Source of the DNA: Lachnospiraceae bacterium
GTDB taxonomy: Bacteria > Bacillota > Clostridia > Lachnospirales > Lachnospiraceae
Assembly: GCA_015057085.1 (NCBI GenBank)
Contig: SVFB01000008.1
Span: forward strand, 1 to 44,284
Length of the DNA stretch: 44,284 bases
Direction: 5' to 3'
Part shown: positions 10,285-44,284 of the stretch, in pieces
How the letters are laid out: each line of letters starts with the position of its first letter
Numbering within the stretch: position 1 is the first letter of the stretch
Notes under the pieces: model-generated
Seen by the model: only the letters and a program-made list of their open reading frames with translations
Told to the model about the DNA's origin: nothing
The model's database searches: none
Position numbers and translations under genes: made by a program

Positions 10285-10521
10285 GATAAATCGTTGATGA
10301 GGACAGTAGCTGATTGAAATGTCACAGAGAGAAGCCGGTTGGTGCAAGGCTTTGACAGGAAAATCAGGGAAGACCACCTCGGAGAGATCCTTAATCGGAT
10401 ACGTTCGGTCACGTTACGACTGTAAAAGTGGTTATTTGCATAACGCAGATAGCAATTTGGGTGGAACCGCGAGACATCGTCCCAATTCATTATGTATCTC
10501 ATAATGGATTGGGACTTTTTT
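10285..10521 (+). promoter_or_regulatory. T-box riboswitch, threonine specific
   Basis: The leader carries the full T-box layout. Stem I has the AGTA box (10305-10308) and a CAGAGAG..CCGGTTGGTGC distal arm. The specifier region near 10371-10378 reads GACCACC, so the codon is ACC (Thr) in either phase. The T-box TGGGTGGAACCGCG ends at 10471. The antiterminator pairs 10454-10461 with 10481-10487, competing with the terminator. Uncharged tRNA-Thr should stabilise readthrough into thrS. A weak promoter (TTGAAA 10249, TAAGGT 10272) may lie upstream. Confidence 0.93.
10479..10521 (+). terminator. T-box regulated intrinsic terminator
   Basis: A 16-bp stem (10479-10494 with 10500-10515, one wobble) and a five-base loop precede six T residues. 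It includes the CCCAATT strand that the antiterminator would capture. Confidence 0.93.
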
Positions 10522-20209: not shown

Positions 20210-20599
20210 TTGGGCAAAAAAGTAGAAGTGACGCCGGGAGAAATGCTTGACATTATCAGTCGAAGCAGCGTTGTCCATACGAGCGAACGTACAGAACTGT
20301 ATAGTATATATGATTTTGAAAAGCTGGTGAGGGATGGAAGTGTCTCGGATAAGACTGCCACTGCAAGATTGGTAATAGGTGGCTTTGCCAATGATTCTTA
20401 TCATATTTATATTGATCGAAGACTGGTTGCCAGAAGCACCGGATTGATTACCTATGAAGGCTTGCTGAAAATGTATGATGCAACACAATTGCAAGTTGAA
20501 GTGACATACAAAGCGCAGCGTTTCTTTACCAGAGAAGAATATAAGCGAAATAAAGCAAACACTCGTAAAAATAAAAATAAAAAGCAGGCAACTGCATAA
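20210..20599 (+). CDS. Uncharacterised 129-residue basic protein
   Basis: I do not recognise this protein. It starts at TTG, chosen because GAGG lies about ten bases upstream and no suitable ATG exists near the front (the ATG at 20243 has its purine run only two bases away). The body (residues 1-105) looks like a compact alpha/beta fold. The last 25 residues are rich in Lys, Arg and Asn, which suggests nucleic-acid or ribosome contact. There is no signal peptide or membrane helix. It is followed directly by a strong terminator, supporting a real gene. Confidence 0.75.
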   Translation: MGKKVEVTPGEMLDIISRSSVVHTSERTELYSIYDFEKLVRDGSVSDKTATARLVIGGFANDSYHIYIDRRLVARSTGLITYEGLLKMYDATQLQVEVTYKAQRFFTREEYKRNKANTRKNKNKKQATA

Positions 20600-25115: not shown

Positions 25116-25131
25116 ATTGACAGTTGTCAAT
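25116..25131. promoter_or_regulatory. Dyad ATTGACA-GT-TGTCAAT upstream of suf
   Basis: A perfect 7+7 base inverted repeat around a two-base centre. Its inner half-sites (TTGACA/TGTCAA) are identical to those of a dyad at 43767-43780 beside the TetR gene. The left half could also serve as a -35 box, with a weak TAACAA 17 bases on (25140). It lies just after the GGDEF/EAL stop codon. Confidence 0.4.
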
Positions 25132-39692: not shown

Positions 39693-41399
39693 ATGACAGA
39701 GTTACAATTGGTACAAATCTATATTGAGTCCTGGGCTGCCGTACTTTGTGGGGTTTTTGCAATCAGTCTCTTTTTGATTCGAAAGACAGAACCAAAGAGT
39801 ACCAAAATGTTGATGCTTTTAATCATCAATGTGGCAGTAAATCTGTGGAGTGATATGCTTGCCATCTATTTCCGCGGAAATGTGACGGAGGTGGGATATT
39901 ACGGCGTGCGTATAACAAACTATATCGCTTTTGCCACAAATGCACTTACTCCCGCACTTGCAATGCTTTTCGTCGTAGAAGCAATCAGGGATCACAAAGA
40001 GCAAATTACAGTGATGTGGGTCAGTGTCACAGGAGCGATTTCAACTGTTTCACTTCTGATTTTGACAATCTCTTTATTTGGTCATTTTATCTATTATTTT
40101 GATGAACAGAATTTTTATCACAGAGGCGAGTGGTTTTATCTGTCACAGGTGGGACCGGGATTGGTACTGTTGATGCTTGTGATATGTATTTTCCGATATC
40201 GGAAGGTCTTATCAAAAGGCGAAGTGGCAGTGATGATTGGATATATCATTTTGCCAATGTGCGCATTGTTGGTGCAGTATTGGTTTTATGGATTAAGCCT
40301 GATTAATATGGCAACCACTCTATCTGTTACATTAATGTTTGTATTGCGCATTACCTCCCGCTCGAAGACGATTCGGGAAGTTCGCGCGAGGATTCAGAGA
40401 GAAAATGCAATCAAGAAGTTGCGTCCGGAGGATCCGGAAGTAAGCGAGCGTATGAGAAAGGCTTCTCTCGGTAAAGGCAATATCAAACATATCTTTATCG
40501 TAAATCCGCTTGTAGTAGACCCAACCCAAATCGAAGAAATTCGTGCAATCATCGAAAAGATGCCGGAGCATGACTACTTTATATTCACCAGCCGAGCGAA
40601 GCAGTCAGAGTCGGATTTGGTAAAACAGATTCAGCATTATTTCGTGGATTATAAACTCCGCATTTATGTATGCGGCGGTTCCGGAACATTGCGCAATGTA
40701 CTAAGCGGAATCGAAGACTTATCAAAAGTAGAAGTTGGTTTCTATCCATGTGGGTTGACCAATGATTTCTTGAAATGCTTCGGAGAAGATGCCGAAAAAT
40801 TCACACATATAGAGAATCTGATTGACGGAACCACCATTGCGGTTGATTATATCAAATCCAATTATGGAATCGCTTTAAATTCCTTTTCGGTGGGACTTGA
40901 TACCAATGTGATGAAGGCGGTAGAGCATTTTAGAGCATTGAAATTTTTAAACTCCGGAGCACCGTATATACTCTCATTGTTCTGTGCAATTTTCACTTCG
41001 CGTATCAGAGAGTATCGTGTCGTTTTGGATGGAAAAGAATATATCGGAAAACGTTCTGAAGTTATATTTGGAAATGGAAGCTACATCGGAGGCGCTTTGC
41101 AATTTGCAAAGAAAGCCAATATTGCTGATGGAAGAGGAACTTATATTATCACAGACAACAAAAAGCGATTCGGACTTTTTCGTGCGGTGGTGGCATTGTT
41201 GCGCGGGGATGAAAGCGAATTGGAGAAGCAGGCATTGTTTGGATATGCGGAGAATGTGAAGATTTCCGCACTTGATCATAATGGAATGTATGTGGACTTC
41301 GATGGCGAATTGGAGTTCGGATATGAAGATTTTGAAGCACATATTGTGAGAAAAGGATTGCATTTCATAGTGCCGAAGGGGGTGGAGATTCATGCGTGA
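39693..41399 (+). CDS. 7TM protein fused to a diacylglycerol-kinase-like domain
   Basis: The 568-residue protein has about seven membrane helices in residues 1-225, with a YYFDEQNFYHRGEWF segment of a kind I associate with 7TM sensor modules of histidine kinases and GGDEF proteins in Clostridia. From about 265 to the end it has a YegS/DGK-like catalytic fold (KHIFIVNPLV, then the nucleotide loop, PCGLTND at 352-358, and a DGE motif at 537-539). Such domains phosphorylate lipids using ATP. The nucleotide loop reads GGSGT (328-332) where the family has GGDGT, so activity is uncertain. No strong ribosome site precedes the ATG. Its end overlaps the next gene by eight bases. Confidence 0.85.
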   Translation: MTELQLVQIYIESWAAVLCGVFAISLFLIRKTEPKSTKMLMLLIINVAVNLWSDMLAIYFRGNVTEVGYYGVRITNYIAFATNALTPALAMLFVVEAIRDHKEQITVMWVSVTGAISTVSLLILTISLFGHFIYYFDEQNFYHRGEWFYLSQVGPGLVLLMLVICIFRYRKVLSKGEVAVMIGYIILPMCALLVQYWFYGLSLINMATTLSVTLMFVLRITSRSKTIREVRARIQRENAIKKLRPEDPEVSERMRKASLGKGNIKHIFIVNPLVVDPTQIEEIRAIIEKMPEHDYFIFTSRAKQSESDLVKQIQHYFVDYKLRIYVCGGSGTLRNVLSGIEDLSKVEVGFYPCGLTNDFLKCFGEDAEKFTHIENLIDGTTIAVDYIKSNYGIALNSFSVGLDTNVMKAVEHFRALKFLNSGAPYILSLFCAIFTSRIREYRVVLDGKEYIGKRSEVIFGNGSYIGGALQFAKKANIADGRGTYIITDNKKRFGLFRAVVALLRGDESELEKQALFGYAENVKISALDHNGMYVDFDGELEFGYEDFEAHIVRKGLHFIVPKGVEIHA

Positions 41400-43170
41400 T
41401 CAAAGCTATTACATCGGCCGATTGATTTCCATAGTGCTGTACATGGCGCAAGGGTTGTTTACCACAATTAAAATGTTTACGGACAGAAATGTCCCGAATC
41501 CTGCAGCTGCGACAATCTTGATTTTCTGGCTGGTGACCTGTGTCATCATTATCAGACTGACGGAAGAACATGGAATGTCATCTTATGTATTTTGTGTATT
41601 TACATGTATCTCTTCTACCGTGATGGCTGTGGTGATGGCGTATTTGTACCGCTCCATCGTCCTTGTAATGATAGTATATATGGTGCAATGTCTGGCAGTC
41701 ATTTGCTTCAAACAACGGCGAAGTTGTCTGGTGATTGGATTTACTACTGCTTTTGCATTGGTTCAATTTGCAGTTTTGGATATCATGGGAATCTATTGCT
41801 TTATCAATTGGCTGGAATTCTGGTGCTGTCTGATTGCTGTACTGGTCAGCATGTGGGTGGCTTTTCACCAAATAGAAATTCTGCAGATCCAGGAAAAAAA
41901 GAATGAGATTAATCAAAAGGGCCTGGATGATATGCTTCACGTGGTTGAAGTTATGTGCGACGAAGCCCGTGATGCAACAAAAAGCAAATCGCAATTTCTT
42001 TCAAATATGTCTCATGAAATTCGTACTCCAATTAATTCGATGTTGGGGATGAACGAGATGATTTTGCGCGAATGCACGGATGAGCAGACAATTAAGTATG
42101 CCAGAAATATTGAAAGTTCCGGAAAGATGTTACTTTCACTGATTAATGATATTTTGGATTTCTCAAAGATTGAATCCGGAAAAATGGAAGTCATCTACAG
42201 TGACTATCGTCTCAGCACCATGCTAAATGACTTGACCAATATCATCGCGACCAGAATGCAGGAAAAGAAGTTGGATTTTTCTGTGGAGGTTGATCCGATG
42301 ACTCCAGAATGTCTTATGGGAGACGAGATTAAAATCAAGCAGATTGTCACAAACTTCCTGACAAATGCGGTTAAATACACTGATGAAGGAAGCGTGAAAT
42401 TGAAGGTCTATCCGGAGAATCGCAGAAAAGATGCCAATACCGCAATCTGTTTCGAGGTTATTGATACCGGACGTGGAATCAAGATGCAGGACCAGGAAGT
42501 GCTGTTTCATGCCTTTGAACGCGTGGATCAAAAGAAGAATCGCAGCATCGAAGGAACCGGTTTAGGCCTGGCCATTGCCAGCAATTTTACAGCGTTGATG
42601 GATGGCGAAATCGGTGTGGAAAGTGAATATGGAAAGGGCTCTGATTTCTATGTGAAGATTCCGCAGATTGTCACAAGCGGTGTGCAGATCGGAGAATATT
42701 CCTTCAATCAAAAGGCGCCAAAAGGTGAGCGAAGAAAGCATATGCCATGCTTTATCGCGCCGGATGTGAAATTATTGATTGTCGATGACAACGAGATGAA
42801 TTTGACAGTGGCTTCATTCCTCTTAAAGGAGAATCAGATGCAAATTACCACTGCAACAGGCGGCTGGCAATCGGTTGAACTGTTGCGACAGCAGCACTTC
42901 GACGCAGTATTGCTGGATCATATGATGCCTGAACTTGATGGAGTGGATGCACTTAAGATTATGAAAGCGGAAGGATTGGTGGTGAATACACCGGTGATTG
43001 CACTCACAGCAAATGCAGTATCTGGTGCAAGAGAAAAATATTTGGAAGCCGGCTTCTCGGACTATCTCTCTAAACCGATTGTGGGAAGAGATTTGGAAAA
43101 GCTTTTGATGCGCTGGCTCCCGCAGGATAAACTTCAAATCGTAGCAACGGAGGAAGACGCCGGGGCTTAG
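41392..43170 (+). CDS. Hybrid sensor histidine kinase with receiver domain
   Basis: The 592-residue protein has five or six membrane helices in residues 1-165, a coiled linker, then a kinase core: the phosphorylated His208 in NMSHEIRTPIN, an N box NFLTNAVKYTDEG, and ATP-lid motifs DTGRGI and GTGLGLAI. A receiver domain (about 460-585) follows with acceptor Asp509 in LLDHMMPELDG and Lys in SKP. No extracellular sensor is evident. No separate phosphotransfer protein or response regulator is nearby, so the output is unknown. GGTGGAG precedes the ATG. Overlap with the lipid-kinase gene suggests tight co-expression. Confidence 0.93.
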   Translation: MRDQSYYIGRLISIVLYMAQGLFTTIKMFTDRNVPNPAAATILIFWLVTCVIIIRLTEEHGMSSYVFCVFTCISSTVMAVVMAYLYRSIVLVMIVYMVQCLAVICFKQRRSCLVIGFTTAFALVQFAVLDIMGIYCFINWLEFWCCLIAVLVSMWVAFHQIEILQIQEKKNEINQKGLDDMLHVVEVMCDEARDATKSKSQFLSNMSHEIRTPINSMLGMNEMILRECTDEQTIKYARNIESSGKMLLSLINDILDFSKIESGKMEVIYSDYRLSTMLNDLTNIIATRMQEKKLDFSVEVDPMTPECLMGDEIKIKQIVTNFLTNAVKYTDEGSVKLKVYPENRRKDANTAICFEVIDTGRGIKMQDQEVLFHAFERVDQKKNRSIEGTGLGLAIASNFTALMDGEIGVESEYGKGSDFYVKIPQIVTSGVQIGEYSFNQKAPKGERRKHMPCFIAPDVKLLIVDDNEMNLTVASFLLKENQMQITTATGGWQSVELLRQQHFDAVLLDHMMPELDGVDALKIMKAEGLVVNTPVIALTANAVSGAREKYLEAGFSDYLSKPIVGRDLEKLLMRWLPQDKLQIVATEEDAGA

Positions 43171-43706
43171 CCCAGGGCGGTTCCACCGAGCAAACTGTGG
43201 ATAATCTCGTATAATTCGTCCTGGGAAAGCTTCTTTCCTTCGGTGATATAAACCTTCGCAATACCGAACAAACCGCAAGCAACAAATTCAGCTGCATACA
43301 TGCGTTGCTCCTCAGGGAGATTAGGCTGAAAACATACACAGTTAAAAAAAGTTTCAGAGAGGGACTTATGCATCATGTAAATGATATCGTTTTGGACGAG
43401 AAGCGTGAGGACCTCTTGTTTTTCGATAATATAATGTGTATATTCGTGGCTTAAATCTTCTAAAGAAAGATGCGGCTTCTTGCATTCTGCGCCGGGCTGA
43501 AACGAATTCTTGAAACATAATTCAAAAAGGATAATATTTTCTTTTGATTCAAAAATGGAATAGAATGTCTGACGTGAAACTCCTGCGGCTTTGCAAATCG
43601 CACTGATGCTAATATCAGAATACGGCGTTTCATGTAATAATTTCAAGAAAGCATCGGCGATATGTTTCTTGGAAGCAAGAGCAGTTTTGTTGGTTCCTTT
43701 GTACAT
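43167..43706 (-). CDS. TetR-family transcriptional regulator
   Basis: The 179-residue protein has the N-terminal TetR helix-turn-helix (residues about 8-55, SKKHIADAFLKLLHETPYSD, then ISAICKAAGVSRQTFYSIFESKENI). The remaining helices form a ligand domain that I cannot assign. GAAGGAG lies before its ATG on the minus strand. Its stop overlaps the stop of the hybrid kinase gene tail to tail. Two inverted repeats upstream suggest self-regulation. Confidence 0.92.
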   Translation of the reverse strand: MYKGTNKTALASKKHIADAFLKLLHETPYSDISISAICKAAGVSRQTFYSIFESKENIILFELCFKNSFQPGAECKKPHLSLEDLSHEYTHYIIEKQEVLTLLVQNDIIYMMHKSLSETFFNCVCFQPNLPEEQRMYAAEFVACGLFGIAKVYITEGKKLSQDELYEIIHSLLGGTALG

Positions 43707-43766
43707 TTGGAAATTCTCCTTCGTGGCAACAATATATAAAATAATTATAAATTTGTCGCCAAGAAC

Positions 43767-43780
43767 TTGACAAGTGTCAA
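43767..43780. promoter_or_regulatory. TetR operator candidate 1
   Basis: TTGACA-AG-TGTCAA is a perfect 6+6 base dyad. It lies in the transcribed leader of the TetR gene and includes the -35 box of the plus-strand promoter (43767-43795). Confidence 0.6.
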
Positions 43781-43795
43781 ATCTAGTATTATCAT
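43767..43795 (+). promoter_or_regulatory. Promoter of the candidate small RNA
   Basis: TTGACA (43767-43772) and TATCAT (43790-43795) are separated by 17 bases, a near-consensus sigma-A promoter. Transcription would begin near 43802. Confidence 0.6.
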
Positions 43796-43802
43796 CAATT
43801 AC

Positions 43803-43831
43803 ATCTTAGACAAATGTCTAAGTTTCGTCAA
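43803..43831 (-). promoter_or_regulatory. Promoter of the TetR gene
   Basis: Read on the minus strand, TTGACG (43831-43826) and TAAGAT (43808-43803) are 17 bases apart. Transcription would begin near 43796. The box overlaps the start region of the plus-strand transcript, so the two promoters probably exclude each other. Confidence 0.6.
43805..43822. promoter_or_regulatory. TetR operator candidate 2
   Basis: CTTAGACA-AA-TGTCTAAG is a perfect 8+8 base dyad. It covers the -10/spacer region of the TetR promoter and the first transcribed bases of the plus-strand transcript. The half-site resembles that of operator 1 (TWGACA). Confidence 0.7.
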
Positions 43832-43914
43832 GAGAATTTCAGCTGTTTACTTTGATCTTATAAAATACCCTCCCCCATCATTTTATAAATCTCCTAATAA
43901 ACAGCGTTATTCGC

Positions 43915-43948
43915 GCTCCGGGATTGAAATGCCCGGAGCTTTTTTTTT
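43915..43948 (+). terminator. Strong intrinsic terminator without an upstream protein gene
   Basis: GCTCCGGG (43915-43922) pairs perfectly with CCCGGAGC (43932-43939), followed by nine T residues (43940-43948). The nearest plus-strand gene ends at 43170, so it most likely ends a non-coding transcript. Confidence 0.88.
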
Positions 43949-44234
43949 ACCACATTCACATCTCCACACCTCCCCTCACACACAACATCAAAGCGCGCCT
44001 CACAGGCAAAATCCACCATCTCTTACTTCGTGCCGGCAACAAGCCTTGCAGCCGCTCCCATGTCCAGGCCACCACACCTTTACGACCCGGATTTTGTTTC
44101 GCGTCACAGCCACCATTCCCCCTTCCCACACAAGGTCTTGCTGCGAAAATTGCACCAACGTGTTTCGCTTCTTCTATTACCGAATTTTTCTTCTCCGGGG
44201 TATCCGGGCCGATATTTCTAGCCGCCTCGCTGGC
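43940..44234 (-). repeat. G-rich dispersed repeat, copy B
   Basis: Read on the minus strand this is the second copy of the element at 191-520. The well-matched core is 44087-44234. It begins GCCAGCGAGGCGG against GCCATTCGACGCA in copy A and carries the same ordered blocks. The far end (43940-43960) has the GTGGT plus A-run plus AGCT pattern, which here merges with the terminator U tract. Plus-strand frames through it lack ribosome sites and look non-coding. The remaining 44235-44284 shows only a short TTCGAA hairpin. Confidence 0.65.
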
Positions 44235-44284
44235 ATAAGTCCACCTTCGAAGTTTTTCGAAAGCAACAGGTCTTTGTAGTTTAT

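Follow-up and report, generated by a model that had tools for sequence, protein, structure and literature searches.

A small RNA possibly born by loss of lon from a TetR-controlled module in a Lachnospiraceae bacterium

Near the right end of contig SVFB01000008.1 of a Lachnospiraceae bacterium, analysed here over its whole 44,284 nucleotides (the window), a TetR-family gene lies back to back with a second promoter, behind which we found no convincing gene from about 43802 to a T-run ending near 43949. What does this second promoter make, and why does it stand where it does? The regulatory part of the locus is laid out as follows.

43167-43706, minus strand: tetR, a TetR-family regulator of 179 aa (open reading frame with TetR_N domain)
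43773-43744, minus strand: P−, the tetR promoter, TTGTCA, 18 bp, TATAAT (11 of 12 consensus positions; expected start near 43737)
43767-43795, plus strand: P+, the divergent promoter, TTGACA, 17 bp, TATCAT (11 of 12 consensus positions; expected start near 43802)
43767-43780, no strand assigned: O1, perfect dyad TTGACAAGTGTCAA, spanning both −35 boxes and kept in relatives
43805-43822, no strand assigned: O2, perfect dyad CTTAGACA-AA-TGTCTAAG, covering the first transcribed bases of P+ only

P+ and P− ranked as the top two among 11 promoter-like sites between 42400 and 44284, where shuffled sequences average 3.2, and their −35 boxes (43767-43772 and 43768-43773, respectively) overlap by 5 bp inside O1. 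The first-pass annotation had described opposite-strand promoters starting only a few bases apart, with two dyads lying across both. Both promoters and both dyads stand, but the −10 boxes place the starts about 65 bp from each other, and only O1 spans the two promoters. A search of the 2.79-Mb genome for the motif TDGACANNTGTCHA gave four places, O1 and O2 among them, and none for the reversed control. The other two are found within an open reading frame (contig C49) and 5′ of a sufC-like gene at 25117; this last one is a perfect operator-like dyad, TTGACAGTTGTCAA (25117-25130), and could be an extra TetR site or a chance occurrence.

The TetR_N domain (PF00440) of the regulator scores 35.2 bits for a cut-off of 24, which places it in the TetR family. 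The solved structures closest to its profile are DhaS (2iu5) and the similar 4mk6, with E values of 2e-12 and 3.3e-12. However, the protein reaches only 45.8 bits with the DhaS model TIGR02366, below the cut-off of 129, and DhaS is an activator according to the model name. Judged by sequence, we have little doubt that the regulator–operator–promoter anatomy is real, and repression of both promoters by TetR appears highly probable. TetR would bind O1 and O2 and repress its own gene. Because O1 covers the overlapping −35 boxes, its occupancy would silence tetR and P+ together, while O2 would add TetR control on P+ alone. At its other end, tetR meets a convergent hybrid histidine kinase gene on the plus strand, the two stops overlapping by 4 bp (43167-43170). 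Directly before the kinase gene lies an open reading frame (39693-41399) with a diacylglycerol-kinase catalytic domain and a long N-terminal part that looks membrane-spanning by eye.

The divergent arrangement had also been read as a bistable choice between regulator and RNA. The overlapping −35 boxes do imply competition between polymerases, but overlap alone gives competition and not two stable states. A repressor at O1 would shut both arms, which is ordinary autorepression combined with target repression. Nor does the RNA seem to act back on tetR: its pairing with the tetR start region is at chance level, being equalled or bettered by 251 of 500 shuffled RNAs, and this region lies outside the best 12 among 36 start regions of the window. 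A 17-nt direct repeat considered as a link between RNA and tetR gave only −10.5 kcal/mol locally and was rejected. In 20 relatives, the same divergent layout faces a protein gene. We regard the bistable switch as extremely improbable.

We then turn to the product of P+, for which the following elements were predicted.

43802-43949, plus strand: non-coding RNA of about 148 nt, its ends placed by the −10 box and the T-run
43842-43905, plus strand: main hairpin, with a 13-nt C-rich loop ACCCTCCCCCATC at 43867-43879
43915-43949, plus strand: intrinsic terminator with an 8-bp G+C-rich stem, a 9-nt loop and a T-run (z −3.77; 0 of 200 shuffles as good)

The RNA (43802-43950) folds at −39.9 kcal/mol with a z of −6.25, and the inner hairpin piece (43838-43909) gives −6.84; in neither case was any of 200 shuffles as good. 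Pair probabilities range from 0.87 to 1.0 in the hairpin and terminator stems, and the loop ACCCUCCCCCAUC is open at 0.98-1.0. In a fold scan of both strands with 30 shuffles, over 72-nt grid windows (7370 in all) plus this piece, the hairpin came third by z (−8.3); a grid window one base off gave −5.5 and 29 grid windows lay at −5 or lower, and the rank depends on register and on the few shuffles. The top-ranked place, near 20581, is an ordinary terminator-like hairpin. Our terminator scan listed none in this stretch; it takes loops of 3-8 nt, and the terminator loop here has 9.

In agreement with the first-pass annotation, we see no convincing protein gene in the predicted plus-strand transcript, which would be a terminated, strongly structured product. 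An ATG frame within the RNA has 13 codons (43814-43855) and, by eye, no Shine-Dalgarno sequence. A TTG frame of 170 aa (43767-44279) was discounted, crossing promoter, terminator and repeat. By prediction, the stretch thus has the features of a trans-acting sRNA gene: its own promoter, no protein gene and an intrinsic terminator. No Rfam family was found at the gathering cut-off on the predicted RNA; a sub-threshold match to a Betaproteobacteria toxic small RNA (22.5 for 50 bits, E 0.035) was taken as chance. Elsewhere in the window, a TwoAYGGAY RNA motif (5-161, at the left contig end) and a T-box leader (10285-10487) score above gathering. A repeated or mobile hairpin was rejected, the search of the own genome returning the query place alone at E up to 0.1, and so was viral carriage: hairpin, TetR profile and operator pair all lacked a match in viral_contigs. 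The hairpin was seen in one genome only, the search covering 61 other genomes of the genus. A discrete non-coding RNA is likely to be made from P+; for its being a functional sRNA the odds look even.

To see what P+ faces elsewhere, we compared related TetR loci. A scan of genome contigs gave eight TetR relatives (L043-L050), to which the window TetR is 56-62% (L043-L045) and 37-41% (L046-L050) identical. TetR searches found 5 of 299 family genomes at E up to 1e-20 and 13 of 397 at 1e-25. In the genus of G085, 13 of 79 genomes were positive at 1e-25, and in the order 3 of 392 at 1e-40; the family and order counts include the own genome. The family and order genomes are even samples of larger groups, and no more than eight candidates per genome were scored in the 397- and 392-genome searches. 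Within the window's own genus, 23 other genomes gave a TetR match of E 7.6e-17 and 27% identity at best. The comparison comprised 35 rows: the window, 16 loci with lon (L043-L045, L049, L075, L076, L078, L120, L135-L142), four with a DUF1858 gene, five near TetR loci without a lon match and nine distant TetR loci, which do not enter the counts. Among duplicates, L122 and L129 (of L078) were kept out of this comparison, and L118 (of the window) and L119 (of L076) were left out throughout. The loci are not all independent, L138, L140 and L142 being alike over 330 bases.

The O1/O2 pair was present in all eight first relatives. In four of them (L043, L044, L045 and L049) P+ faces lon behind a CIRCE site, the lon of L043 being endopeptidase La by TIGR00763; in the others (L046, L047, L048 and L050) it faces a 67-residue DUF1858 protein, in L046 a hybrid-cluster-associated redox disulfide domain. 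Over the 20 lon or DUF1858 loci, O1 with TTGACA was found in every case, and both a −10 with at least 4 of 6 positions at 17 bp and an O2 at 38-42 bp from O1 in 19, with L075 failing for each. The O2 pattern was widened (TACA allowed) after inspection of L076; with the narrower pattern O2 occurs in 18 of 20. The dyads thus passed the conservation check on which the first-pass annotation had staked its reading. Of the 16 lon loci, 14 showed a clear CIRCE repeat and two, L076 and L078, a good left arm only. This arrangement suggests double control of lon by TetR and HrcA. Of the nine distant loci, five lack both dyads and three have just O1; in L127 the O1/O2 pair precedes another gene. As a separate observation, nine genomes of the order, including one of the same family, have TTGACATATGTC-type dyad pairs around a −10-like stretch (L054-L058, L060, L063-L070 and L072-L074); these pairs perhaps belong to another regulator with a similar layout.

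A different picture came from L077 and L131-L134, the five near TetR loci where no lon was matched. None has O2; O1 is found in three, none of which has a −10 with at least 4 of 6 positions. L131 resembles L132, L133 resembles L134, and L077 has only 145 nt upstream, leaving perhaps three independent cases, and these loci may never have had lon. The window is likewise without lon and yet, unlike these five, keeps P+ and a perfect O2, and it is mainly on this contrast that we base the idea of a useful RNA. That O2 is perfect in the window and absent from these five hints at selection on the RNA; in many relatives it is imperfect.

We examined whether the lon leaders resemble the window RNA. From the leaders of 14 of the 16 lon loci (L140 and L142 left out), we picked the best hairpin that precedes the final U-tract upstream of CIRCE; this procedure yields some hairpin for nearly any sequence, and shuffles are therefore needed. 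At most 10 of 200 shuffles matched the hairpin in seven loci (L043, 3; L044, 1; L045, 3; L049, 0; L120, 7; L135, 8; L137, 10), while the other seven showed no clear outlier (L076, 13; L139, 19; L141, 21; L136, 23; L138, 25; L078, 54; L075, 79). The window gave 0 of 200 in the same test. In L049 the leader hairpin is the O2 dyad itself. ACC comes after the T-run in the window, as in 8 of 14 lon leaders, and the bases after O2, GTTTCGTCAAG, are common to the window, L043 and L044. On account of the leader hairpins with U-tract, the ACC and the shared GTTTCGTCAAG, we read the window RNA as what may be a terminated lon leader. The C-rich loop is absent from lon leaders and the window hairpin is not part of those examined; the leader may have been enlarged by a new hairpin.

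If the layout descends from a TetR/lon module, usually with CIRCE, lon would have been lost here and the terminated leader kept and remodelled into a free-standing small RNA, in an order of events that we infer. No CIRCE inverted repeat follows P+ in the window. With the L043 lon protein as query, the own genome gave no better match than a lon of 41% identity on contig C66, besides two weaker ones. The CIRCE pattern used was found at five sites of this genome, by reading before clpB, hsp20, htpG, groES and hrcA; it demands a perfect right arm, and imperfect sites would escape it. With no close lon or CIRCE-lon elsewhere, mere displacement of lon in the assembly was judged unlikely, as was its position in an assembly gap given a genome 96.7% complete. 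Repeat-like DNA begins at 43962, about 13 bp past the T-run, with a close repeat match from about 44088 up to 44284. Elsewhere in the own genome this repeat matched 60 more places (with 40 of 120 first-look candidates scored), 47 of which start less than 500 bases from the left end of a contig; L003 and L006 show a unit of 226-229 bp, and the repeat stands in tandem in some of L002-L008. The assembly probably breaks at this repeat, and a repeat-associated rearrangement is a plausible cause of the loss of lon.

Loss of lon need not have left a working RNA. P+ and the terminated leader could be idle leftovers of a recent loss, O1 persisting for tetR autorepression. Such a remnant fits the presence of lon or DUF1858 genes behind the same promoter in relatives, and a repeat that sets in some 14 bp after the terminator, as a rearrangement might leave it. 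It also fits the poor recovery of the RNA from 61 further genomes of the genus, where the matches were short and weak (78% over 45 bases at best, E 0.004). It explains less well that O2 and the −10 of P+ are intact, though neither is needed for autorepression at O1, that O2 is a perfect dyad here and imperfect in many relatives, and that a hairpin so far from random (z −6.84) is absent from the lon leaders examined. We give this remnant a substantial chance, somewhat short of even.

Two further readings keep the terminator and drop the free RNA. The stretch 43802-43949 could be an attenuator leader, with read-through to a gene past the contig-end repeat: lon leaders of relatives may hold a terminator before the gene, and the contig breaks off inside the repeat, 335 bp after the terminator. 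But no competing fold was predicted against the terminator stem, whose pair probability is about 1. The repeat-like DNA beyond it, 320 bp or more, holds no convincing gene, and no second close lon was found in the 96.7% complete genome; we consider an attenuator improbable. Alternatively, the terminator might serve read-through from the histidine-kinase gene (41392-43170, plus strand), P+ being incidental. The terminator scan (loops of 3-8 nt) does list no terminator-like site between the convergent kinase gene and tetR, but its silence weighs little, the 43915 terminator having been missed too, and this terminator lies about 780 bp past the kinase stop, directly behind a near-consensus promoter. 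Kinase read-through is thus a very remote prospect.

The best explanation is, in our view, an sRNA derived from a lon leader whose loop would act on Shine-Dalgarno sites, to which we assign a probability of about one half; all odds in this report are judgements, not computed values. A signal would lift TetR, P+ would make the short terminated RNA, and its C-rich loop would probably pair with the G-rich Shine-Dalgarno sequence of other mRNAs, blocking their translation. GGGGAGG-N2-10-ATG occurs at 31 sites in the own genome, compared with 8 for the reversed control. A LysR-type gene on contig C59 gave the best loop pairing at its start region (−23.3 kcal/mol), among 29 rows from 30 loci (none for L111), several rows being without an evident gene and one being the window itself. 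This predicted target pairing is a lead only, and GGGGAGG sites are ordinary, common ribosome sites. The complete history, in which loss of a heat-shock lon gene by repeat-associated excision turned its terminated, TetR-controlled leader into a free-standing C-rich-loop regulator, so that a stress signal that formerly raised a protease would now silence mRNAs, is unlikely to hold in every part and is offered tentatively. If true, it would give a regulatory RNA with a traceable origin, its promoter, operators and leader inherited from a protein gene that was itself lost. Independently, a lon module is described here in which operators of TetR type are joined, at most loci, by a CIRCE site; among the titles and opening lines of abstracts searched, we found no description of such a TetR/CIRCE lon module in Lachnospiraceae.

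Compared with the TetR/lon module of its relatives, the window shares TetR, O1 inside the −35 box, P+ with 17-bp spacing, O2 at 38-42 bp (except in L075) and a leader that often has a hairpin and a U-tract; it differs by the absence of lon and CIRCE and by the extra hairpin with its C-rich loop. Similarly, the TetR/DUF1858 loci (L046-L048, L050) have TetR, O1, O2 and P+ as in the window, but there P+ faces the gene of 67 aa shortly past O2. The closest known RNAs are IsrR and FsrA of Firmicutes, which, like the predicted window RNA, are short, expose C-rich bases in a single-stranded loop and end in an intrinsic terminator (PMC9410917). C-rich regions of IsrR join in pairing at the Shine-Dalgarno and start codon of its targets, and a C-rich motif of FsrA binds Shine-Dalgarno sequences (PMC9410917). 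Both are iron-controlled, IsrR via Fur (PMC9410917), whereas the window RNA is without an Rfam match and its targets are candidates only. For the regulator, LuxT of Vibrio harveyi, a TetR-family protein, represses the sRNA gene qrr1, and repression of an sRNA gene by a TetR-family protein, as proposed in the window, thus has a precedent (PMC8764538). Qrr1 differs in being a quorum-sensing sRNA with known targets (PMC8764538).
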